Of a DNA stretch of 64,000 nucleotides, positions 27,921 through 59,588 are shown in pieces. The notes below the pieces were generated by a model that saw nothing but the letters and a program-made list of their open reading frames with translations, was not told the origin of the DNA and did no database searches. The translations under genes were made by a program, and so were the position numbers. The stretch comes from Neomicrococcus lactis (lineage in GTDB: Bacteria > Actinomycetota > Actinomycetes > Actinomycetales > Micrococcaceae): positions 868,001 through 932,000 of the forward strand of contig NZ_JACHBL010000001.1 of the NCBI RefSeq assembly GCF_014200305.1, written 5' to 3'. Numbering within the stretch: position 1 is the stretch's first letter; each line of letters starts with the position of its first letter.

Positions 27921-28128
27921 TTAGAGCAGACCCCGCTCCTGCTGTTTGGGTGGGCAGGGAACCGTTCCATAGGAGCAGAAAACGCAGCAGTCCCCCAACC
28001 GCTGGGCGTAGACGCTCCCCGCAGCCGGGGCATACCCAGAAGAACTGGCATGCGTCGGTCGGCATCTGAACGGAAGTGGCTACGCCGCACGACGGGCACG
28101 ACACCACGGAGTTTAATTCGACGGACAT
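27921..28128 (-). pseudogene. GDCCVxC-domain (seleno)protein, frameshifted
   Basis: From ATG 28128 (GGAG 9 nt upstream) the frame gives VVSCPSCG, MPTDACQFFWVCPGCG and RLRPAV, matching the small zinc-like GDCCVxC family often found in mercury/metal elements. The family signature GDCCVFC is encoded next, but in another frame. A run of five C on the + strand (27992-27996) has one base too many. Removing it restores LRPAVGDCCVFCSYGTVPCP and a stop at 27921. As read, the frame runs on to 27895 with unrelated residues. This is a true frameshift or a homopolymer error. Confidence 0.72.
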
Positions 28129-28191
28129 CTCTAGGCTCTCCATGGGTTGGCAGAAAATGCGGTTGACGGCCCCGATTGTCTGGCTGACCGG

Positions 28192-28830
28192 TCAGCCGAT
28201 GAAAGCGGGCAGGAATCGCAGAAAGACCGACCCTGCGACCAAGACGTAGGCGATGGCCACGAGCGTTCCGGCCCAGTCGGCGGCGAACCTGGTCACGGCC
28301 CGGGGCGCGGGAATGATGCCGTGGACGAGGTTGCGGACCGTGAGCAGGATAAACAAGGGGATCATCGCCGCCCACACGACCATGCAGTACAGGCACAGGA
28401 TATAGATCTCGAAGAGGGCCTGGCTCCAGAGCCAGATCACGAACACCGTCCCCAGGCTCACCCCAACCTGTAGCCCTGCCCAGTACCAGCGTCCCGGGGA
28501 AGCCCCGGAGAGCACCATCATGGCGGTGGCCAGGATGAGCGCGAAGGCGACGATGCCGATCAGCGGGTTGGGGAAGCCGAAGAGTTCGGACTGCCAGGTG
28601 CCCATGACCCTCCCGCAGGAAACCCACGGGTTCACGTCGCAGCTGGTGATGTGGCCAGGGTTCTTGTACAGGGCCAGGCGCTCCAGGACGAGGATGGCCG
28701 AGGCGACCCAGCCCACGGCCCCGGAGATCAGCAGCACGAGGCCGAAGGCACGGGGGAGGGCGAATCGGGGAACCCGGACGGATGGTTCCCGGGGGCCTGC
28801 CGCGTGGTCATCGGTTCTCGGTGTGGTCAT
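28192..28830 (-). CDS. Vitamin K epoxide reductase (VKOR) family protein
   Basis: 212-residue membrane protein with about five helices. The VKOR active-site pair is C146 and C149 (ILCLYC). The loop pair C64 and C72 (SCDVNPWVSC) shuttles electrons from the partner. Bacterial VKOR reoxidises DsbA with quinone, replacing DsbB. It lies 30 nt downstream of a DsbA-like gene on the same strand, which matches that pairing. Confidence 0.92.
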   Translation of the reverse strand: MTTPRTDDHAAGPREPSVRVPRFALPRAFGLVLLISGAVGWVASAILVLERLALYKNPGHITSCDVNPWVSCGRVMGTWQSELFGFPNPLIGIVAFALILATAMMVLSGASPGRWYWAGLQVGVSLGTVFVIWLWSQALFEIYILCLYCMVVWAAMIPLFILLTVRNLVHGIIPAPRAVTRFAADWAGTLVAIAYVLVAGSVFLRFLPAFIG

Positions 28831-28860
28831 GGTGTCTTCTTCCGGTTCCAGGGACGGGGT

Positions 28861-29556
28861 TTAGTTGGCGGCGGCTTCGGCGATGGCGGCCTGGAACTGT
28901 TCCAGGCTCTGGACCGTGAGCATCTTGCCGTCGAGGAAGAAGGTCGGGGTGCCGGTCACGCCCAGGGCCTTCCCGTCGGCGATGTCGAGCTTTACGCGTT
29001 CCTCGGTGGTCGGGTCGGCGACGGCCGCGTCGTAGGCGGCCATATCGAGTCCGAGGTCTTCGGCATAGGTGCGGAACAGGGCGCTCTTGTTCTCGGCGGA
29101 TTCGCCCCACTGGGCTTGGGTGTCGAACATCTTCTTGTACATCGGTTCGTAGGCGTCCTGCTGGGCTGCGGCCTCCACGGCCACGGCGGCGTTCGTGGAG
29201 TTCAGGTGCCCTGGCAGCGGGAAGTAGCGGTGGACGAAGGTGACGTTCTCCGAGTACTCGGCGCGCAGCTCCTCGACGAACGGGTAGGCCGCACCGCAGG
29301 CTTCGCATTCGTAGTCCAGGAACTCCACCAGGACCGCCTTCTCGCTTGGTGCTTGGGAAAGCACCCGGCTGTTCTCCCGGACGACCTGCTGTTCGGTGGT
29401 GGCGGCGTCGGCTGCTTGGGGGGAAGCGGCCTTGGAGTTTCCCTGGGCGACGGCGTAGCCGATGATCGCAGCGACAACGGCGGCGGCCAGCAGGATCCAG
29501 ACGACGATCTTGGGTTTCTTCGGGGATCGGGTGCTGGGAGGGATCGGAGTGCTCAC
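28861..29556 (-). CDS. Membrane-anchored DsbA-family thiol oxidoreductase
   Basis: 231 residues. A cytoplasmic basic N-terminus is followed by one helix (about 18-37) and an extracytoplasmic thioredoxin fold. The active site is C84-E-A-C87 (DYECEACGAAYPF) and the cis-proline loop is TGTPTFF. I start at GTG 29556; the open frame to 29937 has no DsbA features upstream. With the downstream VKOR it forms an oxidative folding pair on the transposon. Confidence 0.9.
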   Translation of the reverse strand: MSTPIPPSTRSPKKPKIVVWILLAAAVVAAIIGYAVAQGNSKAASPQAADAATTEQQVVRENSRVLSQAPSEKAVLVEFLDYECEACGAAYPFVEELRAEYSENVTFVHRYFPLPGHLNSTNAAVAVEAAAQQDAYEPMYKKMFDTQAQWGESAENKSALFRTYAEDLGLDMAAYDAAVADPTTEERVKLDIADGKALGVTGTPTFFLDGKMLTVQSLEQFQAAIAEAAAN

Positions 29557-29698
29557 GTGGTGTTCCGTTCTGTGGCCGGCGTGCACTAGGGCAGGCCGGA
29601 CGGGTGGGGAGTGTGGGGTGGAATGGCCGTAGCCGGGCGCGGCTGTTCGGTGCACCGTGGCAAGGAGGAATGCGGTTCCCTGATGATCGGCTGTCCCG

Positions 29699-30031
29699 TC
29701 ACCGGCAGGTGCATCCTTCGGGGGTGCAGCAATCCGGGTCCACGGTGAGGACGAGTTCCAGCAGATCACCCAAGGCCGATCCGAGCCGTGGGTCGGCCAA
29801 CCGGTACCAGGTGTTGCGGCCCTCCGGCTGGGCCGCAACCAGTCCGCATCCGCGCAGGCAGGTGAGTTGGTTCGACATCGACTGCCGGGAGACGCCCAGC
29901 TCCGTGGCCAGGTCCGAGGGCCTCGCGGGGGCGTCACGCAGGGCCAACAGGATCCGGGTCCGGGTCCCGTCCGACAGGGCGTGGCCCAATTGCGTCAAGG
30001 CCGAGGTATGCGTGGGGGTTGCGCTTTTCAT
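29699..30031 (-). CDS. CmtR-like ArsR/SmtB metal sensor
   Basis: 110-residue winged-helix repressor resembling mycobacterial CmtR. Cysteines C58 and C62 (CLRGC) in the recognition helix region and C102 in the tail (DPDCCTPEGCTC) match the C57/C61/C102 cadmium-lead ligands of CmtR. Three more tail cysteines (C101, C107, C109) are present. ATG 30031 is preferred. The second sensor gene is divergent, with 203 bp between. A direct repeat TGATCCA at 30048-30054 and 30063-30069 lies over its presumed promoter. Confidence 0.87.
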   Translation of the reverse strand: MKSATPTHTSALTQLGHALSDGTRTRILLALRDAPARPSDLATELGVSRQSMSNQLTCLRGCGLVAAQPEGRNTWYRLADPRLGSALGDLLELVLTVDPDCCTPEGCTCR

Positions 30032-30206
30032 CAAACACCACGGTACATGATCCAATGTATAGTGATCCATTTCCGAGGTCGGGTGAAAGCCACCTCACTC
30101 GGCATCCAGCATTCGGCCCGACTACGCCTTCTCGATCCCCGACGCTCCCGTCAGTCGAGGTCAGGAGCGTGCCCTGGAAGCCTCCACTGCGTTCATCAAA
30201 CTCGAT

Positions 30207-30225
30207 ATATCGTAATTTACGATAT
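30207..30225. promoter_or_regulatory. 19-bp palindromic metal-sensor operator
   Basis: ATATCGTAA-T-TTACGATAT is a perfect 9-bp inverted repeat around one base. It ends 9 bp before the ATG of the second sensor and overlaps a -10-like TATGAT (30223-30228). From that -10 the transcript would begin at or next to the ATG (30235), so a leaderless message is likely. Symmetry and position fit an ArsR/SmtB operator. Confidence 0.75.
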
Positions 30226-30234
30226 GATCGATGT

Positions 30235-30618
30235 ATGACGATTGAATATAGCGGTGAAGACGGCTGCAAGGGGCTTGACCCGGCAGCCGCCCTGTTCCAT
30301 TCCCTGGGCGATCCAGCCCGCCTCGCCATCGTCAAGCGGATGGCGCATGGTGAGGTCAGGGTCAGCCAACTGACCCATGAGCTGGGGTTGGCCCAATCGA
30401 CCGTGTCCACGCACGTGGCCTGCCTGCGGGACTGTGGACTCGTCGAGGGCCGCGCAGAGGGCCGCAGTGTCTACTACTCGCTGACGCGTCCCGAGCTCAT
30501 GGACATGCTGGCCCAGGCCGAAATCCTCTTGGCCGCGACCGGCAACGCGGTGAGCCTGTGCCCGACCTATGGCACCGCCGCCAGGGAAAACGACACCATC
30601 CAGGAGAGTGCCCGATGA
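30235..30618 (+). CDS. ArsR/SmtB-family metal-sensing repressor (second copy)
   Basis: 127-residue winged-helix repressor. CLRDC (C63, C67) sits at the same place as the cadmium-binding CLRGC of CmtR, with extra cysteines C11 and C109. The helix-turn-helix is VSQLTHELGLAQSTVSTHV. ATG 30235 is preferred, just after the 19-bp operator; the open frame back to 30019 crosses the divergent promoter. The stop overlaps the ATPase start as ATGA, so sensor and pump are co-expressed. Confidence 0.88.
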   Translation: MTIEYSGEDGCKGLDPAAALFHSLGDPARLAIVKRMAHGEVRVSQLTHELGLAQSTVSTHVACLRDCGLVEGRAEGRSVYYSLTRPELMDMLAQAEILLAATGNAVSLCPTYGTAARENDTIQESAR

Positions 30619-32567
30619 GCGACGCCTGCGGCTGCAGCGACGAAACAATGGCCCCCGGCACGGCAGGCGAAGAGAAAGCGGAAGGCTTCTGGCAGGTGAG
30701 AGAGGTCCGTGCCGCCGCCGTGTCCGGGGTGCTGCTGCTGGCTGGCTGGATCACTTCCCTGGTCGGGGGCCCGCAGTGGCTGACCTTGCCGCTGGAAATC
30801 ATCGCGTTGCTGGTCGCGGCCTGGACCTTCGTTCCCTCCACGCTGCGGAGCTTGGTTAGGGGCAAGATCGGCGTCGGCACCCTGATGACGATCGCCGCGG
30901 TGGGCGCGGTGCTGCTGGGACAAATCGAGGAAGCAGCGATGCTCGCCTTCCTCTATGCCATCTCCGAAGGCCTGGAGGAATATTCCCTCGCCAAGACCCG
31001 GCGGGGTCTGCGCGCCCTGTTGGACCTCGTCCCGGCCGAGGCAACGGTGCTGCGCCACGGCACCCAGTTCACCGTATCCCCGGCAGAACTCGTCCCCGGG
31101 GATCGGATGGTCGTGCGCCCGGGGGAACGGCTCGCCACGGACGGCAGGATCGTCACCGGGCGCACCTCCCTGGACACCTCGGCGTTGACCGGCGAATCGG
31201 TGCCGGTCGAAGCCGGTCCGGGAACCGAGGTCTGGGCCGGTTCCATCAATGGCACCGGCCCGCTGGAGGTCGAGGTCACCAGCACCGCGGAGAACAACTC
31301 CCTGGCACGCATCGTGCACATCGTGGAGGCCGAACAGTCCCGCAAGGGCCCCGGCCAACGCCTGGCCGACTCCATCGCCAAGCGGCTCGTCCCGGGTATC
31401 CTCATCGTCGCGGGCCTGATCATCGTCTTCGGGTTCATCGTCGGGGAACCCGTGCTCTGGTTCGAACGCGCCCTGGTGGTGCTGGTCGCCGCCTCGCCCT
31501 GCGCGCTGGCGATCTCCGTGCCCGTCACCGTCGTGGCCTCCGTCGGTGCGGCCAGCCGCATCGGCGTGCTGATCAAGGGCGGCGGGGCGCTGGAAACCCT
31601 GGGCAGGATCCGCACCATCGCCTTGGACAAGACCGGCACCCTCACCCGCAACCAACCGGCCGTCATCGACGTCGCCACCGCCGGCCCGGCGACCCGCACG
31701 CAGGTGCTGGCGCTGGCCGCCGGGCTCGAAGAACGCAGCGAGCACCCGCTGGCGCGCGCCATCCTCGCCGCGACCCCGGACCGGGCCAACGTCACCGACG
31801 TGGACACGGTCCCCGGAGCCGGACTGGAAGGCCTGCTCGACGGGCAAAAGGTGCGCCTGGGCCGCCCGGGTTGGATCGAGCCCGGTGAACTGGCCGCGGA
31901 TGTGGAGCGCATGCAACGGGCCGGTGCCACGGCGGTGCTGATTGAACAGGACGGCCAGGTAGTGGGAGCCGTGGCGGTCCGCGACGAGCTTCGCCCCGAA
32001 GCCCGAGAAGTCATCGCCCGGCTTACCCGGTCCGGCTACACGACAGTGATGCTCACCGGCGACAACACCATCACCGCCAACGCCCTGGGGAAGGACGCCG
32101 GCATCACCGAGGTCCACGCCGATCTGCGCCCCGAGGACAAGGCGGACATCATCCGCCGGCTCAAGGCGAACCGGCCCACCGCCATGGTCGGTGACGGCGT
32201 CAACGACGCCCCTGCCCTGGCCACGGCCGACACCGGCATCGCCATGGGTGCCATGGGCACCGACGTCGCCATCGAGACCGCCGATGTCGCACTGATGGGC
32301 GAGGACCTGAACCACCTGCCCCAGGTGCTGGACCACGCCCGGCGGACCCGCCGCATCATGCTGCAAAACGTCGGGCTGTCCCTGCTGCTGATCGCCCTCC
32401 TGATCCCGCTTGCCTTGTTCGGGATCCTCGGGTTGGCGGCCGTGGTCCTGATCCACGAGCTGGCCGAGATCCTTGTCATCGCCAACGGCGTTCGTGCCGG
32501 ACGGATAGCACGGAAAAACCAGCTTGACGCCCGGCAGCCCGGCCCCGTGTTGGAGCCTGCGGCATGA
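30615..32567 (+). CDS. Heavy-metal P1B-type ATPase (cadmium/zinc/cobalt class)
   Basis: 650-residue metal efflux pump. The short N-terminal tail is cysteine-bearing (C5, C7) without a full metal-binding domain. TGES is at 192-195, the transmembrane metal motif is SPC at 294-296, the phosphorylation site DKTGT starts at 338, and GDGVNDAP follows. The SPC motif, in place of CPC, points to the P1B-4 group (CtpD/CoaT, and near CtpG of mycobacteria, which is controlled by CmtR). The last helix has HELAE where P1B-4 pumps have HEGGT, so the ion range is uncertain. Cadmium is favoured by the neighbours. Confidence 0.9.
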   Translation: MSDACGCSDETMAPGTAGEEKAEGFWQVREVRAAAVSGVLLLAGWITSLVGGPQWLTLPLEIIALLVAAWTFVPSTLRSLVRGKIGVGTLMTIAAVGAVLLGQIEEAAMLAFLYAISEGLEEYSLAKTRRGLRALLDLVPAEATVLRHGTQFTVSPAELVPGDRMVVRPGERLATDGRIVTGRTSLDTSALTGESVPVEAGPGTEVWAGSINGTGPLEVEVTSTAENNSLARIVHIVEAEQSRKGPGQRLADSIAKRLVPGILIVAGLIIVFGFIVGEPVLWFERALVVLVAASPCALAISVPVTVVASVGAASRIGVLIKGGGALETLGRIRTIALDKTGTLTRNQPAVIDVATAGPATRTQVLALAAGLEERSEHPLARAILAATPDRANVTDVDTVPGAGLEGLLDGQKVRLGRPGWIEPGELAADVERMQRAGATAVLIEQDGQVVGAVAVRDELRPEAREVIARLTRSGYTTVMLTGDNTITANALGKDAGITEVHADLRPEDKADIIRRLKANRPTAMVGDGVNDAPALATADTGIAMGAMGTDVAIETADVALMGEDLNHLPQVLDHARRTRRIMLQNVGLSLLLIALLIPLALFGILGLAAVVLIHELAEILVIANGVRAGRIARKNQLDARQPGPVLEPAA

Positions 32568-33076
32568 GCGCGGCAGCCGAGCGGACCACAGGAGGGCGGT
32601 CCGGCCACTTCCGGTCCCGGTCCCGGACCGTGATGCTGGGCGGGGCGGCGTTGCTCGCCGCCACCGACCTTGTCTCGAAGTGGGTGGCGGAGAGAAACCT
32701 GACCGTGGGCGAGTCCCTGGGCCTGGGGCCGCTGGACATCAGGCTGTTTTACAACACCGGGGTGGCCTTCAGCCTCGGCGCGTCCCTCCCGCCCTGGACG
32801 GTCGCGGCCGCGACCGGGCTGATTATCGCGGCCCTGTTCTGGTTCCTGCTGGCTTCCGAACCGGCCATGACCGGGCTCTCCCGCACGGGGGCGGCCCTGT
32901 TGCTCGGCGGCGCATCGGGGAACTTCATTGACCGGCTGGACGGGCGCGGGGTCGTGGACTTCCTGCACAGCGGATGGTTCCCCACCTTCAACCTCGCAGA
33001 CGTCTTCGTCACCGGGGGTGCCGCCTTGATGGTCCTCGGGGCGTTCAGGCGCCAACCGGAAGAAAATCCCGGATAG
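32564..33076 (+). CDS. lspA: Lipoprotein signal peptidase II
   Basis: 170-residue aspartic peptidase with four membrane helices. The catalytic aspartates are D123 (GNFIDRL) and D146 (FNLADVF), and the FYNTGVAFS motif is present. It overlaps the ATPase stop by ATGA. Extra lspA copies occur in lead and cadmium resistance operons (pbrC). Here one downstream lipoprotein, the TlpA-like protein, could be its client. Confidence 0.93.
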   Translation: MSAAAERTTGGRSGHFRSRSRTVMLGGAALLAATDLVSKWVAERNLTVGESLGLGPLDIRLFYNTGVAFSLGASLPPWTVAAATGLIIAALFWFLLASEPAMTGLSRTGAALLLGGASGNFIDRLDGRGVVDFLHSGWFPTFNLADVFVTGGAALMVLGAFRRQPEENPG

Positions 33077-33161
33077 TCCGTCCGACTCGCCCTGCCGCAA
33101 TCCGGCGCAGCGCGGACAAAATACCGGTGGCGCCACCGATCCCCCACCCTGAAAGGACACC

Positions 33162-33770
33162 ATGGATCTCATCCCCTCCATCCTGCAGGCCATCGGCCTG
33201 TTCATGGCCACCAACATCGACGACATCATCGTGCTCTCATTGTTCTTCGCCCGCGGTGCCGGACAGCGCGGGACAACGGCCCGGATCCTGGCGGGCCAGT
33301 ATCTCGGCTTTGGCGGAATCCTCGCCGCGGCCGTCCTCGTGGCGCTAGGCGCAGGGGTATTCCTCCCTCCCCAGGCGATCCCCTACTTCGGCCTCATCCC
33401 CCTGTTCCTCGGCCTGTGGGCGGCATGGCGAGCCTGGCGAGCCTGGCGGGCAGCCGACGACGACGATGATGCCAAAGTCGCTGGCAAGAACGTGGGGGTA
33501 TTGACTGTCGCGGCTGTCACCTTCGCCAACGGCGGGGACAACATCGGGGTCTATGTTCCGGTTTTCCTCAGCGTGGGACCGACCGCCGTGGTGGCATACT
33601 GCATCGCCTTCCTCGCACTGGTTGCAGTTCTCGTGGTGCTGGCCAAGTTCATTGCCACGCGCCGGCCGATTGCCGAGGTCCTGGAACGCTGGGAGCACGT
33701 CCTGTTCCCGATCGTCCTCATCGGCCTCGGGGTGTTCATCCTCGTCGAGGGAGGGGCCTTTGGACTCTAA
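33162..33770 (+). CDS. cadD: CadD-family cadmium resistance transporter
   Basis: 202-residue membrane protein with five to six helices. The paired motifs TNIDDIIVLSLFF (17-29) and FANGGDNIGVYVPVF are the CadD signature. A WRAWRAWRAADDDDDAK stretch forms a charged cytoplasmic loop; its WRA repeats come from a local tandem repeat in the DNA near 33425-33455. CadD confers cadmium resistance in staphylococci. AAAGGA precedes ATG 33162. Confidence 0.9.
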   Translation: MDLIPSILQAIGLFMATNIDDIIVLSLFFARGAGQRGTTARILAGQYLGFGGILAAAVLVALGAGVFLPPQAIPYFGLIPLFLGLWAAWRAWRAWRAADDDDDAKVAGKNVGVLTVAAVTFANGGDNIGVYVPVFLSVGPTAVVAYCIAFLALVAVLVVLAKFIATRRPIAEVLERWEHVLFPIVLIGLGVFILVEGGAFGL

Positions 33771-33982
33771 CAAGTCCACCTCCGGCAAGGACAGGGCCGG
33801 CACGCTTTCGTCACCGCAATCCCCGAACCCCGAAACCGAACTGGAACAGATTGCCACATAACCCCAGCAATCCACGGTGGGGACGGTGCCGGTAACACCG
33901 GAACCCGCCTCGCAGTCCGCAATGTATATACCCAGCGCGGACCTCTTGGCCAACGCTGCGAACATCCCAGGAGCTAGAAATC
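33771..33982. other. Spacer between cadD and tlpA-like gene
   Basis: About 210 bp without a supported gene. A 33-codon frame from TTG 33762 to 33861 follows GGGAGGGG but has no recognisable product. AGGAG near 33969 serves the downstream gene. Confidence 0.3.
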
Positions 33983-34609
33983 ATGACCGACCCCCTTCCG
34001 TCCCCCTTGAAGCATGCGGGACGCCGCACCTTCCTGCGAGTCGCTGCCCTGGCCGCCGCCGCACTGCCCTTGGCCGCATGCTCCGGTGGCGAGGACTCCC
34101 TGGCCAAGCAGGCGCGGGAGGGAAACAACAAGAACTACATAGCCGGCGATGGCTCGGTGGAGGAATACGGTCCGGAATCCCGCACCGCACCGGTCAAGAT
34201 CAGCGCGGTGGCCTACGACGGAACCACCATTGATTCGGCCACCTGGGTGGGCCAGGCAACGGTGCTGAACTTCTGGTACGCGGCATGTGCACCGTGCCGC
34301 ATTGAGGCCCCGCACTTGGTGGAACTCAGCAGCGAATATGAGGGCAAGGTCGAGTTCATTGGCATCAATGTGCGCGACGAAAAGGAGGCCGCCGAGGCGT
34401 TCGAGCGCACCTTCGGCATCACCTACCCCTCGGTGCAGGACACCCAGGGCGCGATCCAGCTGGCCATGACCCAGTACGTTCCGTTGCAAGCGGTGCCCAC
34501 CACCCTGGTGCTGGATAGGCAGGGCAGGGTCGCGGCACGCATTCTGGGTGCTGCAGAAAAAAGTACGCTCAAGGCCCTGATCGATACCGCCCTCACCGAG
34601 GCCCTGTGA
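33983..34609 (+). CDS. TlpA/ResA-like thiol-disulfide lipoprotein
   Basis: 208-residue exported thioredoxin-like protein. The N-terminus has a twin-arginine-like GRRTFLRV and lipobox LAAC with C33. The redox pair is C102-A-P-C105 (WYAACAPCR), and AVPTTLVLDRQG forms the cis-proline loop. In system II cytochrome c maturation this protein reduces apocytochrome heme-binding cysteines, receiving electrons from CcdA. The next three genes complete that pathway. AGGAG lies upstream of the ATG. Confidence 0.9.
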   Translation: MTDPLPSPLKHAGRRTFLRVAALAAAALPLAACSGGEDSLAKQAREGNNKNYIAGDGSVEEYGPESRTAPVKISAVAYDGTTIDSATWVGQATVLNFWYAACAPCRIEAPHLVELSSEYEGKVEFIGINVRDEKEAAEAFERTFGITYPSVQDTQGAIQLAMTQYVPLQAVPTTLVLDRQGRVAARILGAAEKSTLKALIDTALTEAL

Positions 34610-35403
34610 TGCTTTCATCGCTCGTTGCTTCCCTCGCAATTCCTGCACAGGGGGGCAACCAGTTTGCAGAGATTGTGCAGGACAGTTCGCTGATCCTCGC
34701 GGTCCCCGTCGCCATCCTTGCGGGACTGGTCTCCTTCCTGTCCCCGTGCGTGCTGCCCTTGGTGCCTGGCTACCTGGGTTACGTCACCGGCCTGTCCGGC
34801 GCCGACCTCGCCGAACAGAAGCGTGGTCGCATGGTCGCGGGCATTGGGCTGTTCATCCTCGGTTTCACTGCCGTCTTTGTCCTGGCGGGCGTGGTCTTTT
34901 CACAGATCGCCGTCTGGATGAGATTCGAAGGTTCTTGGGTCACCCAACTCCTGGGCGTGCTGGTGATCCTCATGGGAGTGGTGTTCATGGGCGGTTTCTC
35001 GTTCATGCAACGCGATGCGAAGATCCACCGCAAACCGCCCGCAGGACTCTGGGGTGCCCCGGTTCTCGGTGTCACCTTCGGCCTGGGCTGGGCACCGTGC
35101 ATTGGGCCCACGCTGGCGGCAGTCCTGGCGATGAGCACAGGCATTGATCCCAACCCCGCCAAGGGCGCCTTGTTGACGTTCTTCTACTGCATGGGCTTGG
35201 GCCTGCCGTTTGTTTTCATCGCACTTGGTCTGCGCCGCGGAATGGGCACCATGAAGTTCTTCCGCCGGCACCAGCTGGCGATCATGCGCTTCGGCGGCGG
35301 CATGTTAATACTGCTGGGACTCCTGATGGCCACCGGCCTGTGGGGTTCGTGGGTCACGCAATTGCAGGACTGGTTCACCAACGAGGTCAGGTTGCCCATC
35401 TAA
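34609..35403 (+). CDS. ccdA: CcdA thiol electron transporter
   Basis: 264-residue membrane protein of six helices in two repeats, each with one redox cysteine: LSPCVLPLVPGYLGYV and GWAPCIGPTLAA. It carries electrons from cytoplasmic thioredoxin to the TlpA/ResA-like partner outside. ATG 34609 gives a TGATG overlap; GTG 34606 is an alternative one codon upstream. Its stop overlaps the resB start as TAATG. Confidence 0.93.
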   Translation: MLSSLVASLAIPAQGGNQFAEIVQDSSLILAVPVAILAGLVSFLSPCVLPLVPGYLGYVTGLSGADLAEQKRGRMVAGIGLFILGFTAVFVLAGVVFSQIAVWMRFEGSWVTQLLGVLVILMGVVFMGGFSFMQRDAKIHRKPPAGLWGAPVLGVTFGLGWAPCIGPTLAAVLAMSTGIDPNPAKGALLTFFYCMGLGLPFVFIALGLRRGMGTMKFFRRHQLAIMRFGGGMLILLGLLMATGLWGSWVTQLQDWFTNEVRLPI

Positions 35404-37022
35404 TGGCGAAAAAAGTTTCTAAAAAAGACATTGCGGTCCCGGCCCTCGGGTTCCTTGGGATGCTCCGCTGGGCCTGGACCCAGCTCACCAGCATGCGCAC
35501 CGCACTCTTCCTGCTGCTGCTCCTGGCGGTGGCGGCGGTGCCCGGCTCGCTCTTTCCCCAGCGCTCGGTGAACCCGGAGCAGGTGACCACCTATCTGGCC
35601 AACAAGCCGGTGCTTGGCCAGTGGCTTGACCGCTTCCAGCTCTTTGATGTCTATTCCTCGGTGTGGTTCTCGGCGATCTACCTGCTGCTGTTCATCTCCC
35701 TGATCGGGTGCATCCTGCCCCGGGTCAAGAAGCACGCCAAGGCGCTGCGCACACCGCCGCCACGGACGCCTTCGCGGCTGGACCGCCTGCCGCAGAATGG
35801 AGCCATCCGGATCCAGCCGGCCTCCGAGTCCGGTCTCAGCGACGCGCAAATCGCCAGGGAAGCCGCGGCGCTCTTGAAGAAACGCGGATACCGCTCCGAA
35901 GCCCGCACCGAGGGGGCCAACCCGTCGGTCGGCGCGGAACGGGGATACACCCGGGAAATCGGCAACCTCCTGTTCCACACATCTCTGGTGGGACTCCTGG
36001 CCTCGGTGGGTATCGGTGGGGCGTTTGGCTACAACGGGCAGCACCTGTTGGTCGAGGGGGACACGTTCGTCAACTCCCTGGTGTCCTACGACGCTTTCAC
36101 GCCCGGCACTTGGTTCCAGGAAGACTCCTTGGACCCCTACTCGGTGAAGCTCGAGAAGTTCAACGTCACCTTCGACCGCGAATCGACCACGCACTTCGGC
36201 CAGCCCCTCGATTTCACCGCCGAGGTCGAAACCCGTCGCAGCCCCGGTGCGGAACCCGAAAAGGAAACGATCCGAGTCAACCACCCGCTGCGCATCGATG
36301 GCGCGGACATGTACCTGGTCGGCAACGGCTACGCACCGGTGGTCACCGTACGTGACGGCAACGGTGACGTTGCCTTCAGCGGCCCGGTGGTCTCCGTGCC
36401 GCAGGATGGCATGTACACCTCCCTGATGGTCATCAAGGCCCCCGATGCGAAGCCGGACCAGCTGGGGTTCCAGGGATTTCTGCTGCCCACCGCGATGACG
36501 GACGAGACAGGGTTCGCGATTTCCGGGGACCCGAACGCCATTAACCCGCAGCTCCAGCTGAATTCCTACTATGGGGACCTGGGGCTGGATGACGGCATGC
36601 CGCAAAACGTCTACGTGCTGGAAACCGACCGGCTCACCGAGATGAACAACCGCGACCTCGAGGCCGGCGGCATCGTGCTAGGTGCCGGGCAGACCTACGA
36701 ATTGCCCGACGGCAAGGGAAGCATTTCCTTTGACGGACTCAAGCGCTATATCGGCGTGGACATCGCCTACGACCCGAGCAGGCGCCCCGTCGCGGTCTTT
36801 GCAGCCCTTTCACTGTTGGGATTGGGCATCTCGCTCTTCACCCCGCGTCGCCGTGCTTGGGTGAAAATCAAGACCTCCGTTGACGGCTCGGGCCGTGAAG
36901 AGCGGGTCATCGAATACGGATTGCTGGCCCGCGGAGAAGACCACGGACTTGAATCCGAGGCCAAGGAGCTGCGCAAGCTCCTTGAACAGCAGTGGCCCGC
37001 CGTTGAGCGAGCCGGAGTCTAG
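35403..37022 (+). CDS. resB: Cytochrome c biogenesis protein ResB
   Basis: 539-residue component of the heme lyase. Two helices at the N-terminus surround the FPQRSVNPEQV loop, a third follows the QIAREAAALLKKRGY region, and a large extracytoplasmic domain runs up to a final helix near residue 465 (FAALSLLGLGISLF). A cytoplasmic tail ends it. It works with CcsB to attach heme to CxxCH cysteines. ATG 35403 overlaps the ccdA stop. Confidence 0.93.
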   Translation: MAKKVSKKDIAVPALGFLGMLRWAWTQLTSMRTALFLLLLLAVAAVPGSLFPQRSVNPEQVTTYLANKPVLGQWLDRFQLFDVYSSVWFSAIYLLLFISLIGCILPRVKKHAKALRTPPPRTPSRLDRLPQNGAIRIQPASESGLSDAQIAREAAALLKKRGYRSEARTEGANPSVGAERGYTREIGNLLFHTSLVGLLASVGIGGAFGYNGQHLLVEGDTFVNSLVSYDAFTPGTWFQEDSLDPYSVKLEKFNVTFDRESTTHFGQPLDFTAEVETRRSPGAEPEKETIRVNHPLRIDGADMYLVGNGYAPVVTVRDGNGDVAFSGPVVSVPQDGMYTSLMVIKAPDAKPDQLGFQGFLLPTAMTDETGFAISGDPNAINPQLQLNSYYGDLGLDDGMPQNVYVLETDRLTEMNNRDLEAGGIVLGAGQTYELPDGKGSISFDGLKRYIGVDIAYDPSRRPVAVFAALSLLGLGISLFTPRRRAWVKIKTSVDGSGREERVIEYGLLARGEDHGLESEAKELRKLLEQQWPAVERAGV

Positions 37023-37030
37023 GAGACCGA

Positions 37031-38059
37031 ATGGAAAACGACATGCCCACGATCAACGTGGCCCTGGGACAATACAGCGACCTGTTCATGTTGCTGTCGG
37101 CTCTTGTGTATGCGGCAGCCTTCGTCGCCTTCGCGTGGGACCTTGCGAAGTCAAGCAAGCTCATCCGGGAGATCGACGCCGCCACCCTCGCCTCGGAAAA
37201 GAAGGTGCTGGTCGCGGCCGGGGCGACCGACTCCCCGCCTGCGGACAGATCGACCCATGAGTTGGTCAACGATTCCATGGACTACACCGTCGCTTCCACA
37301 AAGCGCATGGCGGCCAAGGTCGCGGTCTCACTGACCTGGCTCGGTGTGCTCATGCAGGGCTTTGCCGTGGTTGCCAGGGCCATTGCGGCGGCCCGGGTGC
37401 CGTGGGGCAACATGTACGAATTCTTGTCCACCGGCTCCTTCCTGGTCGCCCTCGTCTTTTCGCTGGTGCTGGTGAAGAAAGACCTGCGCTTCATGGGCAC
37501 TTTCGTCATCGGCCTGGTCACCGTGATGCTGTGCGGCGCCACCATGGGCTTCCCCACCCCGGTTGCCCACCTGGTGCCCGCCCTGCAGAGCTACTGGCTG
37601 ATCATCCACGTCTCCATTGCGGTGTTGGCCTCGGCCCTGTTCACCATCACCTTCGCCATGAACGTCCTTCAGCTGGTGCAACACGCCAGGATGGATGCGC
37701 TGGCTACCGGCAAGAGCGACAAGCTGCCGTTCATGCGCCTGGTCCCCGGTGCCGCCGCCCTCGAAAACTTTGCATACCGCATCAATGCCGTGGCGTTCGT
37801 GATGTGGACGTTCACCGTGATGGCCGGTGCCATTTGGGCCGAGGCCGCATGGGGTCGCTACTGGGGCTGGGACACCAAGGAAGTCTGGAGTTTCGTCATT
37901 TGGGTTGTCTACGCCGGCTACCTGCACGCCCGTGCAACCGGCGGCTGGACCGGTGCCCGCTCGGCATGGCTGAGCATTATTGGCTACCTTTGCTTGGTCT
38001 TCAACTTCACCGTCGTGAATCTCTACTTCAACGGGCTGCACTCCTACGCCGGCGTCTAA
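37031..38059 (+). CDS. ccsB: Cytochrome c biogenesis protein CcsB (CcsA/ResC)
   Basis: 342-residue heme-handling membrane protein with about eight helices. The tryptophan-rich WWD-type motif is WGRYWGWDTKEVWSF, which presents heme to ResB and apocytochrome. Flanking histidines are present (LIIHVSIAV, YLHARATGG). AGGAG precedes ATG 37031 by 7 nt. It closes the tlpA-ccdA-resB-ccsB set. Confidence 0.94.
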   Translation: MENDMPTINVALGQYSDLFMLLSALVYAAAFVAFAWDLAKSSKLIREIDAATLASEKKVLVAAGATDSPPADRSTHELVNDSMDYTVASTKRMAAKVAVSLTWLGVLMQGFAVVARAIAAARVPWGNMYEFLSTGSFLVALVFSLVLVKKDLRFMGTFVIGLVTVMLCGATMGFPTPVAHLVPALQSYWLIIHVSIAVLASALFTITFAMNVLQLVQHARMDALATGKSDKLPFMRLVPGAAALENFAYRINAVAFVMWTFTVMAGAIWAEAAWGRYWGWDTKEVWSFVIWVVYAGYLHARATGGWTGARSAWLSIIGYLCLVFNFTVVNLYFNGLHSYAGV

Positions 38060-38123
38060 ATGCCCTCGCAGCGCTCACCAGGGGCTCCGGATCCCCCGAC
38101 AACGGGTCCGGGCCCATCGGTGC

Positions 38124-38153
38124 GCGAGGCCACGCTCCCGAGCGTGGCCTCGC
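38124..38153 (+). terminator. Hairpin after ccsB
   Basis: Perfect 13-bp stem (GCGAGGCCACGCT and its complement) with loop CCCG, 65 nt after ccsB. No T-run follows, so it may end transcription only partly. It separates the cargo from the convergent tnpA. Nothing else is recognised in 38060-38334. Confidence 0.6.
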
Positions 38154-38334
38154 CTAGCAATCGCAGGCCAATCAGCATCATGCCTTGGTCCCCTTGGTGG
38201 ACTTCACCGCCCGGAAAAGTGTCATGACACAGCGAGCGTAGGCAAAGCTGTCCCGTTCAAGGTTCCCCTTGCGGGACTGGTTACTTTCAGAGCAACGTTG
38301 GTCCATACCAGTATCAGACCCCGCTACCTATGGT

Positions 38335-41300
38335 TCAGTCAGCACTATCAGGGGAGATACGCAGGGGGCGGAGCCCGCTTGGTGTGGTGGTGGTGAAGGC
38401 GTAGCGACCGAGCATGTTGACGTGTTGATCGCCGAGCGGGGACAGGCGGGCGATATCGGCGTCGTCCACGAGGTTGCCGGCCTCGCGCAGTGCATTGATG
38501 GAGGCATCGGTGTAGCGGGTGTTCCAGAGCACGATGGCGTTCAGGACCAGGCCGAGTGCACCGAGCTGGTCTTCCTGGCCTTCACGGTAGCGCTGGTAGA
38601 TCTGTCCGCGCCGCCCGTGGAAGATCGCGCGTGCCAGGCGGTGGCGTGATTCCTGGACGGTCTGCTGCGTATGGGTCGTTCGTCGGTAGGTTTCCTCGAG
38701 TGGGTCGATGAGGGCGAGCAGGTGGATGGTCTTGTCCATGCGCCCATATTCGGTGATCGCGGCACCGAGTGGGGACGGGCTGCCGTCACGGGAGAGCATG
38801 CGCAGCAAGTCGTAGGCGCGCACCGTCCCTGTCGCCAGAGACGCAGCGACGCGGGTCATGTCATCCCAGTGTGCGGCGATCCTGGCTAAGTTGATCCGGT
38901 TGCGGGCGACATCGTTCAGCGACCCGTAATCGGAGTCCGTGGTGCCACGCGGGGTTGCGCGCCAGAGGCGTTGGTCGGACAGGTTGGCGATCCGTGGCGA
39001 GAACCGGTAACCCAGAAGGGCGAAGATCCCGAAGACCATGTCGGAGTAGGAAGCCGTGTCCGAGGTGATCGTTTCTGGTCGGGGACCGCCGTCGAGGTTC
39101 AGTATCGTGTCCAGCGCGTAGAGTGAATCACGCACGGTGCCGGGCGCGACAGTGGCGCCGATGCCGGCCACCTGGTCGTTGACCGCGTTGAACCACGTCA
39201 GCCCGCGTCCTCGGCCGAAATACTTCGGGTTCGGGGCAGCGTTGATCGTGCGTACCGGGACCACGAACCGCAGACCATCGACGGAGGCCAGCAGCCCACC
39301 ACCCCACACCTGGGCGACAGGGATCTCACCCTGGGCCTTGATTAGGGTCGCGTTTGCGGCGGAGTGGGTCTCGCTGCGCAGGTAGTTGGCATCCACGTGT
39401 CCGAGCCGAGCGCGCGTCAGGGACGGGTGTCCCTCGGCAACCACGGGTGTCAGGCCAACTTTGCAGGCCTCTGCGACCAGCAGCGCCGCAACCGAGCGCG
39501 GCAGATCATCCATGCGGGCCTTGGACTGCCCGATGTGGGTGTAGGCGTCGAGGAACCCGGTCCAGGAATGAACCTCCAGCAGCAGCTCGGGAAGATCCAC
39601 CCGTGGCAGCATCGAGGCGACCTGCCCACGGAGTTCACGCAGCGAGTCCGGGATCTCCAAGGCATCCAGACGGTCAACCTTCAAACGTGTGCGCCCGTCC
39701 GTACTTGAGGGTTCCAGCCGTACCGAACCGTTCGGGCCCACTTCCTCGAGGCTTGCCGTCAAGCTCCTCCAGGCCGTATCCAGCACCTCAACACGATCGT
39801 TCATGTGCTCGGCAGCCGGCCCTTCCAGGCCCAAGCTGGTCAGCGCCCGATCGCGTACCTGCTCCCACTGCTCACCATCGAGCAGCTGGGCGCGTGGGTC
39901 GCCCCACCGGGTCGATGGTGTGGCAAACACGTCCCGACGGCGCAGGCAAACGCGTAGCTGCTCCAACACGCACAAAACCCATGCTTCCCGGTCAACTTCT
40001 ACCCCGTCGCGACAGAACACCGCCGCGCGCCAGGCAGCCGGTACCAAGGCCTCGGTAACGTCGTCCTTGTGGAGCTGCCGGCGGCCACGCAGGGCTTCCA
40101 ATCCGGCCAGGGCATCAAGCACAGGCTGTCCCGTTGCCGTTGCCCGCAGTGGCAACACGGTAGCCAACAACCCCAGGAATGGGGCAACCGTCCGGTATCG
40201 GCGGGCCACCTGCACACGCATCGCGCCCTCCAGTCCCGAGGCGTCCGGGATGAGAGCACCGACCGTGTCGGCGTACTGCGCGATCTGATCCCTTGCGGCG
40301 ACCTTCTCCAGCCGGGCCCATACCGTCGCTACATCGACTTGCTCGCCCGCTTCCTCCAGCAGGCAGACCAATTCACGCCCGACACGGGCAAGAACAGCCG
40401 AGGCTTTCTCCAGCTCCGGCAGTGTCTCCAACCGTGCCGCGACCGCAGCCCTCTTCGAGGGTCCCAATACCTTCGAGGCCATCAGTGCATCGAACAAGTC
40501 CAACGCATCATCGACCGCCGCCACTGACAACGCTTCCACTGTCGCAACCAACGTGGCCGTGCGGCGCGGCTCCGCCAACCGGCGCAGCGACTGCGCCTTT
40601 GCTTCCACCCCATACCGTGCCAGCGCCCGTAACCGGGATGCCGGCATTCCTGAAGTCTCCACCGCGCCAATACCCAGGGCCCTGACTTGCTCGACCCGCG
40701 CCAGGGCCTTGTTCAAGGCAGGCCCGGACAACCTCACAGGCCCTGCGCGTAATGCTTCTAACCTGGACCCACGGGCACCCTCATCAACGGCCAGCAATCC
40801 AAGCAAACGTCCCGGCAACTGAGGATCCGCGGCCATTGCTGCCCCAGCCAGTCGCTCGTACAGCTCCGACCCTGCACGTTCACGGGCAGCCTGAACCGAC
40901 TTCAATAGTCTCGTCACTCCAGGAAGGAGTATCTGTTTCCGACGCAACCAGGCCACCGCATGGGCGAACAACGCCTTCGGCCCCTCACCGTGCGTCCAGG
41001 CGCGCGAGTAAACGAACTCGCTCAGATCCTCGACCGCAGCTCCCGAGAAGTCCCCATAGCCATAGAGCCGGCGGATCTCCCGCGCATGAGCGTTCGGAGT
41101 CGCAACCCGCTCGGGGTACCGCTTGATCACCGACGGATCATTGATTCGGAGCTGTGCCGCCAAATATTCCACCACGGACCACGGAACATCCAGCGGATCC
41201 GACAGGAACGCCCCCAGGAACCGCACTGTCCCAACCTGAAGCGCAAAACCGAGCCGATTATGCTCACCGCGACGCTCAGCAATCCCTTCCAGGTCAGCCG

Positions 41301-53535: not shown

Positions 53536-53760
53536 GACTCAACTCTAGAGAGCAAAACATCACCGAAGCTGACAGCCCCACTCAGTGCTAGCACTTAACA
53601 CGGTTATGTTACTCATTAGTTCGATCCGCCGAAGTAAAGAATTAGTGGTCAGGCTCTCGAAAATGTATTGACTGCGCGAAATTAAGGGCGCACCATGGGC
53701 ATGTTGATTCGTCTCTCACATTGCACTTTCGAGGTATCACTTCACCGAAAAGAGGCAGCG

Positions 53761-55086
53761 ATGCGTATCGCTTCCACCACGGTTGGCACCACCACTTCAC
53801 CCAGCCTTCCTCAACGGCCACTGCTGATAGTCACCTTCTTCGCTGGACTTTGGATTGCGCTCGGCGAAGTAGATCGACTCATCACTATGGTTCCGGCCGG
53901 AGTTTTCTCAGTCAGTTTCAATGCGGCCAGTTCGTTTCGCCTCTCACTCTCAACTCCCAGTGAAACGGCAAGCCCGTGGGCGAATTTTCCTGCGCTCGAA
54001 CCCATTGCTCACCCGTTCGTATGGGCTTATTTCTGGCTCGATCTGCTGTTCATCCTCACGTATGTCCTGGCATTAGTTCTTGCCGCGCGATTCGTTCGCG
54101 CCCTGACGCCTGGCAGCCCACGGTTCACTCTGCTCACCCGACCGCGGTGGCAATTTGCGATTGCCGCCGGAGCCATGGACCTCGTAGAGAACATCGCGCT
54201 GGTGCTGTTGGTATTTAGTGATCCCACCATACCGGCGCCACACGCATTCATCATCATCGCGTCACTGTCCACCACGCTGAAGTGGATCCTCATTCTGCTG
54301 GCACTGCTTCCGAGTCTTCTGGGTCTCCTCGGAACCCGCGAAGGCAAAAAGTGGATGTCGCCACGAGCCAAAGCGCTGCTGGCTCACCGTTACTCGTTGC
54401 TGGCCTTCCTTCCCATCGCGGGAATGGGGCTTATTCCGGCTTCTGGGGTTCTCGAGCAGCTACCCGACGTGCAGCGTTCTTGGTTCGACTTCACGCAGGG
54501 AACCGGCGACTACGTTGGACTGCAACACGCGGGCGCTGCCGTCATCACGCTGCTCATGGTCATATTGGGTGTTTTCATCATGGGTCGCATAGTCACTGAC
54601 CTCATAGTTCGCCGCTCGGTGTCCACAGAAGTCCGCCGAGAACCCACACCACTTTGGCAGTGGCTCTACGCGCCTTTGATTGTCGGTGGGCTGGCGCTCC
54701 TGGTACTTGCCTCCGGTCGCGGCGATGTTCGGTTCCTGTCGCTCGCTGCGTTTCTCCTCATGCCACTTGGGATAGCCGGTCTCTCTAGAGTTCTTCGTGG
54801 TCGCCTCGGTTTTCGTCCAGAAAATGGGCCGGATCCACGGCGATATACAGCCGATGAAGCACGCCTTGTCTGGATCGTGGGGGGGCATGCTGGCGTTGGC
54901 TACCGCCGTCGTCGCTTCCCTGACTCTCATTCGATCCCACGCAGTGTTTACGATGCTCGGCCACGGCTCCCTTTTCCAGGCGATGATTCCCGTTCTTGGA
55001 TTCGCTTTGGCCGTTGCCGCGTGGCCCTCAGGCCGGCCTGCACTCGAAAAGGTCTGCGAACTGGCCCACATCACGGCGCTGACTGA
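53761..55086 (+). CDS. N-terminal part of a membrane patatin-like protein (frameshifted)
   Basis: From ATG 53761 (GAGG upstream; ATG 53695 also possible) the frame encodes at least seven hydrophobic segments, such as LLIVTFFAGLWIALG, FWLDLLFILTYVLALVLAARF and LIVGGLALLVLASG. After a run of seven G (54879-54885) the frame becomes Arg/Pro-rich and loses all membrane character. The other frame continues with helices. Removing one G joins WIVGG to MLALATAVVASLTLI, giving one protein of about 1079 residues with the gene below. Confidence 0.75.
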   Translation: MRIASTTVGTTTSPSLPQRPLLIVTFFAGLWIALGEVDRLITMVPAGVFSVSFNAASSFRLSLSTPSETASPWANFPALEPIAHPFVWAYFWLDLLFILTYVLALVLAARFVRALTPGSPRFTLLTRPRWQFAIAAGAMDLVENIALVLLVFSDPTIPAPHAFIIIASLSTTLKWILILLALLPSLLGLLGTREGKKWMSPRAKALLAHRYSLLAFLPIAGMGLIPASGVLEQLPDVQRSWFDFTQGTGDYVGLQHAGAAVITLLMVILGVFIMGRIVTDLIVRRSVSTEVRREPTPLWQWLYAPLIVGGLALLVLASGRGDVRFLSLAAFLLMPLGIAGLSRVLRGRLGFRPENGPDPRRYTADEARLVWIVGGHAGVGYRRRRFPDSHSIPRSVYDARPRLPFPGDDSRSWIRFGRCRVALRPACTRKGLRTGPHHGAD

Positions 55087-57001
55087 TCCCAACCAACGCC
55101 CAGACATCACGCTCAACATGCCTCACGGCGATACCTCTGGCGCTCTTCGCATTCCCGCCCAGCGTCAGCAAAGGAGAATGTGGGGCACGGCGTGGTCACT
55201 CATCATTCTCAGCACTGTGGGCCTCGGCGCGGTGTATATCCGGCCTGTCGACGTTGCTGATTCTCTCGGTGTTTTCGGTTCACTCATGTTTGCGTTTTCA
55301 CTCGTTGCGCTTCTGATTGGAGCCACGGTGATTGTTCACACCTTCTACGCTCCGCCGGAGGTGTTCTGGTCCAAGTGGTTCCGGCTTCGCGAATCGCCAA
55401 TCGCCACCCTGTTTGGTGCGTTCGTCGTCGTGGCCCTCTTCGCCGGTAGTAATACAGAGGTTCACGGAGTTCGAACCTTCTCCGAATCTGCAAGCCCTCA
55501 ATCCGCAACCATCCAGCGACACACCCCGCAAGAGACGATTGACGCATGGTGGAGCCGGACCGAGAAGTGTCGCGTTACGCTATCTGACGGTGTGACCAGA
55601 GCTCGGCCGCTTGTCATGGTGGCTTCGAAGGGTGGTGGCATTCGGGCCGCTTATTGGACTGCTATAGCTCTTCAGCGCATGTCTGAAACGAATCCCTGTG
55701 CTTTGGCTTCGATTGCGGTGGCATCGGGTGTATCCGGTGGCTCGATGGGACTTTCCATCAGCCGATTCAACGGGGCTGGTCAGGCTAACGCCGTGGACGA
55801 AGTCCGTTCGATGGGCCAATCGAGCGCTCTATCTCAAGCGACTCTTGGTCTTCTCCTGCGAGACCCTCTGTACACCGCTACGGGCGTTCCTGCGCTGACT
55901 GGTTTCGGTCCGAGCGATGGCGGATGGAATATCACCGACATACCTGAAGCTCGGTGGGTCGATCGAGCCGGACTGATGGAACTCGACTGGGAAAAGCGCT
56001 CGGCAACGTCTCTATCGCAGGATTTCTGGAACCCACCCACCGAAAACCGCGAAGACAAGCTCAGCGCAGACCTGATCCTCAACTCAACTGACGCCATTAC
56101 CGGTTGCCGAGTCTTGGTCTCCCACATCAACGCGACAGAGCCTCAGCGCTCAGCCGATGAAGTCGCCACCACTACGCGAGGGTGCTCAAACAGCTCGGCT
56201 CCGTTGCCTTTTTCCATCGATTTCTATCGCCAATTCGTGCAGAGTCCCACGCAGGTGCTGGATCGCTGCAACGGAACCCTGACGGCCGCCACGGCTTCCA
56301 TGCTGTCCGCTCGTTTTCCATACGTGACCCCCTCGGGCGTCGTTGGCCCATGCCACAGCAGTCCTCAAGCGCAGCTGATTGATGGGGGATACGCGGAGGT
56401 GACGGGCTTGGGATCCATTATTGACTTGGGCCCGGAGCTCCTTGAGGCCGCCGCGCAGAAATCACAGGTCGAAAATGGTGACCCGGTCATACCGATCGTG
56501 ATCTATCTGGATAACGACCGTGGCGGAGACTTGCTCCCTGCCCCACCCAACGCGATCTCCGAATTGATGATCCCGATTACTGGCAATTCGAATGCCGCAA
56601 CCTCGCAGGTATCTGCCGCTTCGCTGCTTCAGCGGGCCGCACACTTGGTTGGTTTTCAGTCCCAGAACGACGACGCCGCTAAGGTCAGCGAAACAGCTTC
56701 GGCATTATTGCAAGGCAGCGTGATTGTGGTTTCGCAGCGTTCGGAGCCATCGGTTGCCGCACCCTTGGGCTGGATTCTTTCCTCCGCAAGTACGAAGCAA
56801 ATGGATAAGTCACTCGAGCAAGAAGTCACTCGTGGCTGCAGCGTTGAATCGAACAACGTGAATGGATATCCGAGCCTCGGTTATCTCGTGAATCTCTTTG
56901 GAGCCTGCCCTGCTGGGGTGCCAGATGGGGGCGCGGGGAGCGACACTGCTATCGAAATTTGGCCCCCTAGTGCTTTTTTTGTCCGCAAATACCCCCACTG
57001 A
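54797..57001 (+). CDS. C-terminal part of a membrane patatin-like phospholipase (frameshifted)
   Basis: The frame has three more hydrophobic segments and then a patatin-type hydrolase domain. The oxyanion glycine motif is SKGGGIRAAYW, the nucleophile elbow GVSGGSMG with Ser, and the dyad aspartate IDGGYAEVTG. True translation of this part presumably needs the upstream half; internal starts such as ATG 54824, 54854 or 54887 have no clear ribosome site. The family cleaves lipid acyl esters at membranes. The role here is unknown. G7 at 54879-54885 is the break point. Confidence 0.78.
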   Translation: MVASVFVQKMGRIHGDIQPMKHALSGSWGGMLALATAVVASLTLIRSHAVFTMLGHGSLFQAMIPVLGFALAVAAWPSGRPALEKVCELAHITALTDPNQRPDITLNMPHGDTSGALRIPAQRQQRRMWGTAWSLIILSTVGLGAVYIRPVDVADSLGVFGSLMFAFSLVALLIGATVIVHTFYAPPEVFWSKWFRLRESPIATLFGAFVVVALFAGSNTEVHGVRTFSESASPQSATIQRHTPQETIDAWWSRTEKCRVTLSDGVTRARPLVMVASKGGGIRAAYWTAIALQRMSETNPCALASIAVASGVSGGSMGLSISRFNGAGQANAVDEVRSMGQSSALSQATLGLLLRDPLYTATGVPALTGFGPSDGGWNITDIPEARWVDRAGLMELDWEKRSATSLSQDFWNPPTENREDKLSADLILNSTDAITGCRVLVSHINATEPQRSADEVATTTRGCSNSSAPLPFSIDFYRQFVQSPTQVLDRCNGTLTAATASMLSARFPYVTPSGVVGPCHSSPQAQLIDGGYAEVTGLGSIIDLGPELLEAAAQKSQVENGDPVIPIVIYLDNDRGGDLLPAPPNAISELMIPITGNSNAATSQVSAASLLQRAAHLVGFQSQNDDAAKVSETASALLQGSVIVVSQRSEPSVAAPLGWILSSASTKQMDKSLEQEVTRGCSVESNNVNGYPSLGYLVNLFGACPAGVPDGGAGSDTAIEIWPPSAFFVRKYPH
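54879..54885 (+). other. G7 homopolymer at the frameshift
   Basis: Seven consecutive G where six would keep a single reading frame across the membrane patatin-like gene. It could be phase variation by slippage, mutation or a sequencing indel. Confidence 0.75.
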
Positions 57002-58696: not shown

Positions 58697-59141
58697 GTCC
58701 ATCTAGACAGGTAAGGATCTGGGGGAGCGGCGCTCATTTCAAGATGCCCCAATCAGCAGTTCAAGTGGTCTGACCAAGGCAGCCCGATACTTGGGTCCCA
58801 CACAAGAAAACTGCTAGCAGTGCTGCACAAATGAACAGCTGAGTTCTCAAGATTGTTTGAGGTGCTTTCATCCGGAGAGTCATGAGTTATTGACGGCGTC
58901 TAGGAACCGACAAATGCAAGGGGACAAATGCGTGGGTCTCGGTTCCAGCGCCTCGCAGAAGATATGGAATAGGGGCTACAGGTCAGCCGACCCCACTCAG
59001 TCAGATTCATGCTAGTTGACATAATGTATATTATCGGCGCTCCAATATAGTCTCTAGACATGTACAACTAAGTGGCTTGGATGCCGGTTACTCTAAGTGA
59101 ATCTAACGTCTTACATCGAGCAAAGACTGAGCAACATCACC
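58697..59141. other. Intergenic region before the LysR gene
   Basis: About 445 bp without a supported gene. It contains the perfect inverted repeat ATAAT-gtat-ATTAT (59021-59034) beside TTGACA (59016-59021), a likely regulator-binding promoter for the LysR gene. A frame from 59072 is weak. Confidence 0.45.
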
Positions 59142-59588
59142 ATGGAACTTCGACAGATCGAAGCATTCATCGCCGTCGCCGAAGAATTGCACTTCGGACG
59201 CGCAGCTCAACGCTTGCACATGGCTCAGTCGCCACTCAGTCAATCCATCAAGAAACTTGAGAAGGATTTAGGCGCACAACTCGTTGAGCGCAATACACGG
59301 ACCGCCTCATTGACTAAGGCTGGACAGTCTTTTCTGCCACATGCTCGAAATGTACTCACAGAGCTGGATCTCGCGCGACGATCCACGAACTCTGACGATG
59401 GTGCTATCTACGGTCAGCTGTCCATCGGATTCTCCGGCGCGTTGAACCATTCCACATTGCCACCTCTGACAAGGGCTTTGCGCGCCTACTACCCCGGCCT
59501 GGATTTAATTCTAAACGGTGGGCTTTTGACTCAGGATGCTCTAGATCAATTGCGCCAAGGAAGCCTCGATCTTGCCTCTGCGCACTAG
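59142..59588 (+). pseudogene. Truncated LysR-family regulator
   Basis: From ATG 59142 the protein begins MELRQIEAFIAVAEELHFGR, the classic LysR winged helix, with AQRLHMAQSPLSQSIKKLE. The co-inducer domain starts (LSIGFSGALNHSTLPPL) but stops at residue 148, whereas LysR proteins have about 300. The last residues LDLASAH run straight into the convergent S51 gene, with overlapping stops. About 150 codons have been lost, probably by deletion. The DNA-binding part could still act. Confidence 0.85.

Follow-up and report, generated by a model that had tools for sequence, protein, structure and literature searches.

A patatin-like membrane gene in two reading frames

We analysed a window of 64,000 nucleotides from Neomicrococcus lactis, the genome of which amounts to 2.70 Mb in two contigs. 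The window carries a patatin-like membrane gene, and inside this gene lies a run of seven G at 54879-54885, exactly where a preliminary description of the DNA had put it. The reading frame of the first piece is open from ATG 53761 through the G7 run and onward, out of the coding frame, to 55086, while the second piece is open in the +1 frame up to a stop codon ending at 57001. The features of the locus are as follows (residue numbers are those of piece 2).

53761 to 54876, plus strand: piece 1, 372 amino acids in frame 1; amino-terminal membrane half with 8 hydrophobic segments and no cysteine
54877 to 54886, plus strand: junction of ten bases, containing the G7 run (54879-54885) and no A
54886 to 55086, plus strand: out-of-frame tail of piece 1, reaching a stop that ends at 55086
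54887 to 56998, plus strand: piece 2, 704 amino acids in the +1 frame; 5 more hydrophobic segments, then the predicted patatin-fold domain; stop codon at 56999-57001
55556 to 56908, plus strand: predicted patatin-fold domain, residues about 224-674, with eight cysteines
55631 to 55639, plus strand: GGG of the glycine-rich motif, residues 249-251, invariant in 40 aligned sequences
55733 to 55735, plus strand: Ser283 of GVSGG, invariant in the 40 sequences
56381 to 56389, plus strand: DGG with Asp499, invariant in the 40 sequences

Both pieces were scored with a coding-frame model, for which 257 ORFs of 750 bases or more in the same genome served as the training set. Frame 1 was best over 53761-54787 (38.2, versus -715.7 and -293.4 for the other frames) and frame 2 was best over 54887-56998 (96.7, versus -1317.0 and -1353.1); over 54887-55086, where both frames are open, frame 1 scored -63.3 and frame 2 scored 12.5. 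The model thus backs each piece in its own frame, as had been proposed. On its own the model sets the switch at 54788, about 100 bases early, because 54788-54885 scores almost equally in the two frames (-3.6 and 3.1). Matches to piece 1 in tblastn reach window position 54882 in two of the four relatives tried (L003 and L005). Judged from this homology, the frame break is at the G run, which settles the early placement by the model. Neither reading of the ORFs nor the frame model revealed further breaks inside the two pieces.

Relatives and genomic setting of the gene

Relatives carry both pieces as a single protein of roughly 1000-1100 residues. A search with piece 2 found the gene in 10 of 396 genomes of the order and in 12 of 395 genomes of the family (13 with an alignment as query), the window's own genome included in each case. 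A single-protein query of the contig collection gave no matches, but an alignment of piece 2 found 277 related loci there, the best 80 of which were kept (L046-L125). At E<=1, one ORF accounts for the matches to both pieces in 72 of the 80 loci, a count that includes one locus with a shortened ORF (L081); at E<=0.01 it does so in 68. Piece 1 was unmatched in seven loci, namely L076, which lies at a contig end, and six distant ones; in the remaining locus, L091, the matches to the two pieces lie in different ORFs. The order-level search gave 14 loci in which both pieces match one ORF, partly the same genes as among the 80. The closest relatives among the best 80 of the 277 loci are 43-44% identical to the window gene over the best segment. 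The single-ORF relatives, from Serinicoccus, Tessaracoccus, Arthrobacter, Agromyces, Kribbella and other genera, have the same architecture and conserved residues as the window gene, but they are unsplit at this place and mostly carry Gly-Asp where the window has its G run.

The junction was compared across an alignment of 78 relatives, from which L076 (contig end) and L091 (broken) were left out. Exactly three residues separate the aligned end of piece 1 from the aligned start of piece 2 in 76 of them, so that nine bases stand where the window has ten (54877-54886); the other two are distant relatives that do not align at the junction. None of the 78 is split at the break site of the window. 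The comparison with relatives that had been proposed as a check therefore bears out the view that this is one gene in two pieces, broken at the G run. Columns were counted in 74 relatives after four incomplete or distant rows had been dropped. The junction residues are Gly in 68 of the 74, followed by Asp in 63, and none has Gly in the Asp column. As the junction in the window contains no A, Asp is not encodable there in any frame. At the 104 columns conserved in at least 80% of the 74 relatives, the window departs from the consensus at eight, two of which are the junction itself; the median departure of the relatives is also eight, and five members of the closest clade depart at 6-9. The window gene thus shows no sign of long decay and, with no further lesions in either piece, we rejected a pseudogene with accumulated decay.

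The patatin membrane gene is absent from the one other genome of the genus that was compared (G001). Synteny with this genome is good on the left up to window position 53549, and on the right it begins again at 59586. Between these borders the window holds the patatin gene, an aldehyde dehydrogenase and a LysR gene that is shortened, and the contents of the other genome there include an integrase and a Cro/C1-type regulator. The LysR-type regulator gene (59097-59588), at the right border of the differing region, is cut to 163 amino acids, its substrate domain being matched only to position 59 of 209. In a tree of piece 2 (71 rows, 8 distant relatives left out), the window gene falls into a clade with Serinicoccus and Tessaracoccus (7 rows, support 100), apart from the Arthrobacter group (13 rows, support 95). 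In codon score the two pieces surpass just 3.8% and 6.5% of 186 genes sampled; taken by itself this is no proof, because a syntenic neighbour, DUF3054, scores equally low (6.5%). The patatin gene is accessory and, we infer, was probably acquired horizontally.

Two further observations were made on the genome. Elsewhere in the window, 28001-40000 has a GC content of 0.63-0.67 per 2 kb, against mostly 0.54-0.61 in the remainder. The second contig carries an IS110-family element (L044, 15322-16913) that shares 99.6% identity with an element carried by a Glutamicibacter protophormiae plasmid, and a G7 run lies at the edge of this element.

Architecture of the encoded protein

A simple hydropathy scan gave about 13 hydrophobic segments, eight in piece 1 and five in piece 2. 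The preliminary description had proposed about ten helices followed by a patatin domain with intact GxSxG and DGG; the domain, as a predicted fold, and its motifs held up, and the helix count has to be raised to about 13. Patatin-like phospholipases are defined by a Ser-Asp dyad in GxSxG and DGG/DGA together with a glycine-rich oxyanion loop, and piece 2 contains all of these motifs. G281, S283, G285, D499, G500, G501 and G249-G251 are invariant in the 40 aligned sequences, as are cysteines 228, 407, 433, 461 and 489. We take Ser283 to be the nucleophile of GxSxG, Asp499 of DGG to be the catalytic aspartate and GGG 249-251 to form the oxyanion hole.

Structures were predicted for piece 2 (pLDDT 82.5) and for a whole relative, L050 from Serinicoccus chungangensis (pLDDT 86.2). 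A Foldseek search with the piece 2 model gave nine matches at E<=0.001, with E down to 1e-05. Against patatin-fold structures, VIA-align gave Z 16.3-20.9 and rmsd 3.3-5.6; the values for patatin, iPLA2-beta, CapE and CapV were Z 17.9-20.9. Among single structures, 6aun (iPLA2-beta) gave Z 20.9 with rmsd 4.7 over 301 residues, 9ioq gave Z 20.2 with rmsd 3.8 over 277, and 4pka (plant patatin) gave Z 20.1 with rmsd 5.2 over 303. Piece 2 is thus predicted to have the patatin fold over its whole domain. It shares the fold and the GGG, GxSxG and DGG motifs with known patatin-like phospholipases (plant patatin 1oxw/4pka, iPLA2-beta 6aun, CapV, CapE and PlpD). The window protein differs from these in that sequence identity is only about 9-17%, the patatin domain stands behind about 13 hydrophobic segments, cysteines are invariant, and the Pfam Patatin family is not matched.

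Indeed, PF01734 gave no match to the window protein at E<=1; it matched 2 of 14 alignment members at this threshold, the best at 0.0018, and L005 reached 17.6 bits against a gathering cut-off of 27.7. An NCBIfam ABC transporter model hit piece 1 at E 0.0011, with 17.5 bits against a cut-off of 845, and was taken as chance; no NCBIfam model matched piece 2. Rfam gave nothing in the 64,000-nucleotide window at gathering scores, and a sequence search of solved structures returned no significant match. When the model of the whole relative was compared with the PDB, the patatin domain occupied the top of the list and the membrane half had no convincing match. The viral structure library gave three matches at E<=0.001, all to patatin-like or PNPLA proteins. 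An anti-phage role was considered and rejected: neither piece matched PADLOC at E<=1, and the likeness to CapV and CapE is common to other patatin-fold proteins, including VipD and ExoU at lower Z.

Charged residues alternate between the loops in a pattern that, by the positive-inside rule, places the amino terminus on the inner side of the membrane and the domain on the outer side. The patatin-fold hydrolase domain therefore probably lies outside the membrane, as far as this can be read from the loops, and the five invariant cysteines suggest that it works outside the cell. The models, taken with the hydropathy scan, indicate that the protein is probably a membrane protein of about 13 helices with a patatin-fold hydrolase domain. 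Literature searches on patatin-like proteins with frameshift, homopolymer, phase variation, transmembrane helices or Arthrobacter, and on phase variation or homopolymeric tracts in Actinobacteria, gave no title on this gene among the matches listed.

Origin of the frame offset

Most probably, the frame offset goes back to a one-off, one-base event at the poly-G run, either a recent real mutation or an error in the consensus, and not to an evolved switch. At the position of the Gly-Asp of most relatives, the window gene would have lost the Asp codon, with a longer G run arising in its place, and a further change in the length of the run, either during replication or in the consensus, would then have moved the frame. 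As printed, the sequence would be translated only as far as 55086, through the first eight helices, and an enzyme would be made only if piece 2 were started independently. In the GeneTack study (PMC3711429), singleton frameshift genes are breaks in a single genome supported by protein matches. The window gene, broken in one genome, with protein matches and with no homologous breaks in relatives, does not differ essentially from this class as it is described there.

That the change is real, a recent mutation in the sequenced strain, has a chance that falls not far short of even. The cut LysR neighbour and broken alleles elsewhere in the family favour it. Three broken members were seen, and two of them, the window and L091, break at G runs. 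In L091 (Kribbella capetownensis) the frame breaks around a G6 run at 2994-2999, shortly before the glycine-rich motif and at a different place in the gene from that of the window. L081 (Arthrobacter sp. E3) has an in-frame TGA at 2167, in the membrane half; L018 is the same gene, and its protein-level match passes through the stop in one frame. The alleles of L091 and L081 were broken independently.

An error of sequencing or consensus at the G run, with the gene whole in the organism, is the other form that a one-off length change could take; it is a serious contender, although we would not give it an even chance. The preliminary description had named it as the plain alternative, and it is still live. 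The authors of GeneTack expect that breaks in single genomes with protein support are sequencing errors rather more than true indels (PMC3711429). The genome has 12 G/C runs of at least seven, and the frame model puts only that of the window in coding sequence and the other 11 outside it, although the status of these 11 rests on the model because six lie in or at the edge of an ORF of at least 70 amino acids. The preservation of the catalytic motifs and of almost every conserved column would also fit an intact gene. On the other hand, indels do not seem to be frequent in the assembly. We ran a frame scan over 464 kb, consisting of 400 kb of evenly spaced stretches and the window, which listed 122 switches and flagged nine: seven in the 400 kb sample (L031 twice, L033 twice, L034, L035 and L040) and two in the window (4072 and the G7 site). 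When the neighbouring ORFs were read, none of the seven was judged to be a true break. Of 120 simulated insertions, the scan saw a switch in 115 but flagged 79, and its gene-overlap rule can hide true breaks. Error is further opposed by the 17 G/C runs of six in the 464 kb, of which 14 sit inside an ORF of at least 120 amino acids, and by the broken family alleles in other genomes.

Reversible on/off switching, which the preliminary description had raised as a possibility, would require that the run slips in replication and that a minority of cells makes the full protein. We consider this unlikely, and the comparison with relatives does not support it. A G7 run can slip reversibly, and a switch, too, would lead one to expect a G run in the gene of a membrane protein with intact coding on both flanks. 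In L091 the break likewise falls at a G run, and a metagenome-assembled relative from the Nocardiopsaceae (L097) has an in-frame G7 at 2638-2645, a few codons ahead of the position that corresponds to the break in the window, in an ORF that is whole. Against this, a conserved slippery tract was looked for at the site and rejected: the 76 relatives aligned there have at most five G, the nearby G7 of L097 being the one near exception, and none of the 78 is split. Long runs are avoided in the family, with 48 G/C runs of at least six observed in its ORFs against about 221 expected from synonymous shuffling, and two of at least seven against about 61, the expected numbers being for stop-to-stop ORFs, which include some upstream sequence. 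The longer runs of the genome, two of nine and one of eight, lie outside coding segments by the frame model, and seven G is short beside known switching tracts. The window thus differs from poly-G contingency loci in that the tract is not kept at the site in relatives and the family is depleted of such runs; here, moreover, it was seen in one genome.

Published cases bear on switching in both directions. Most phase-variable gene products are exposed to the environment of the cell, according to the GeneTack study (PMC3711429). In the actinobacterium Propionibacterium acnes, variable G/C runs are reported to affect reading frames (PMC4746626), and the window resembles this case in that here, too, the frame of an actinobacterial gene depends on a G run. 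However, run length in P. acnes followed the clades, and the authors took this as slow accumulation and not as active modification (PMC4746626). A switch built on a recent tract, acting on an outward-facing patatin hydrolase of 13 helices in a family in which poly-G tracts with breaks recur (the window, L091 and the in-frame G7 of L097), is improbable to the same degree; were switching true, it would be an unusual case for actinobacteria.

Better candidates for length-variable tracts are the two C9 runs of this genome (L148 1501-1509 and L156 1501-1509), which are longer than the G7 of the window. Both lie outside ORFs of 70 amino acids, and one is closely followed by an ORF with a lipoprotein-like beginning. 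Two G7 runs within 100 bases of each other (L154 and L155, contig 1 1381751-1381845) lie in a stretch that is entirely non-coding by the frame model despite an ORF of 274 amino acids.

Programmed recoding, by a shift of the ribosome or RNA polymerase at the run, or translation of piece 2 from its own start to give two proteins that assemble, is very improbable: possible starts of piece 2 lie near the run (GTG 54797 or ATG 54887) and a protein split between helices could in principle reassemble, but all 78 aligned relatives are unsplit at this place, and -1 slippage, the best-known type in bacteria, would enter the third frame, which stops after 11 codons, whereas piece 2 is in the +1 frame, so that a programmed -1 ribosomal frameshift was rejected.

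A one-off length change, the reading we prefer, makes the break as such an ordinary one, since homopolymers commonly carry indels confined to one genome, in nature as well as in assemblies. Interest in the gene itself is modest: it encodes a probable patatin-fold hydrolase behind about 13 hydrophobic segments that occurs in many actinobacterial genera and falls below the Pfam cut-off in the members scanned.
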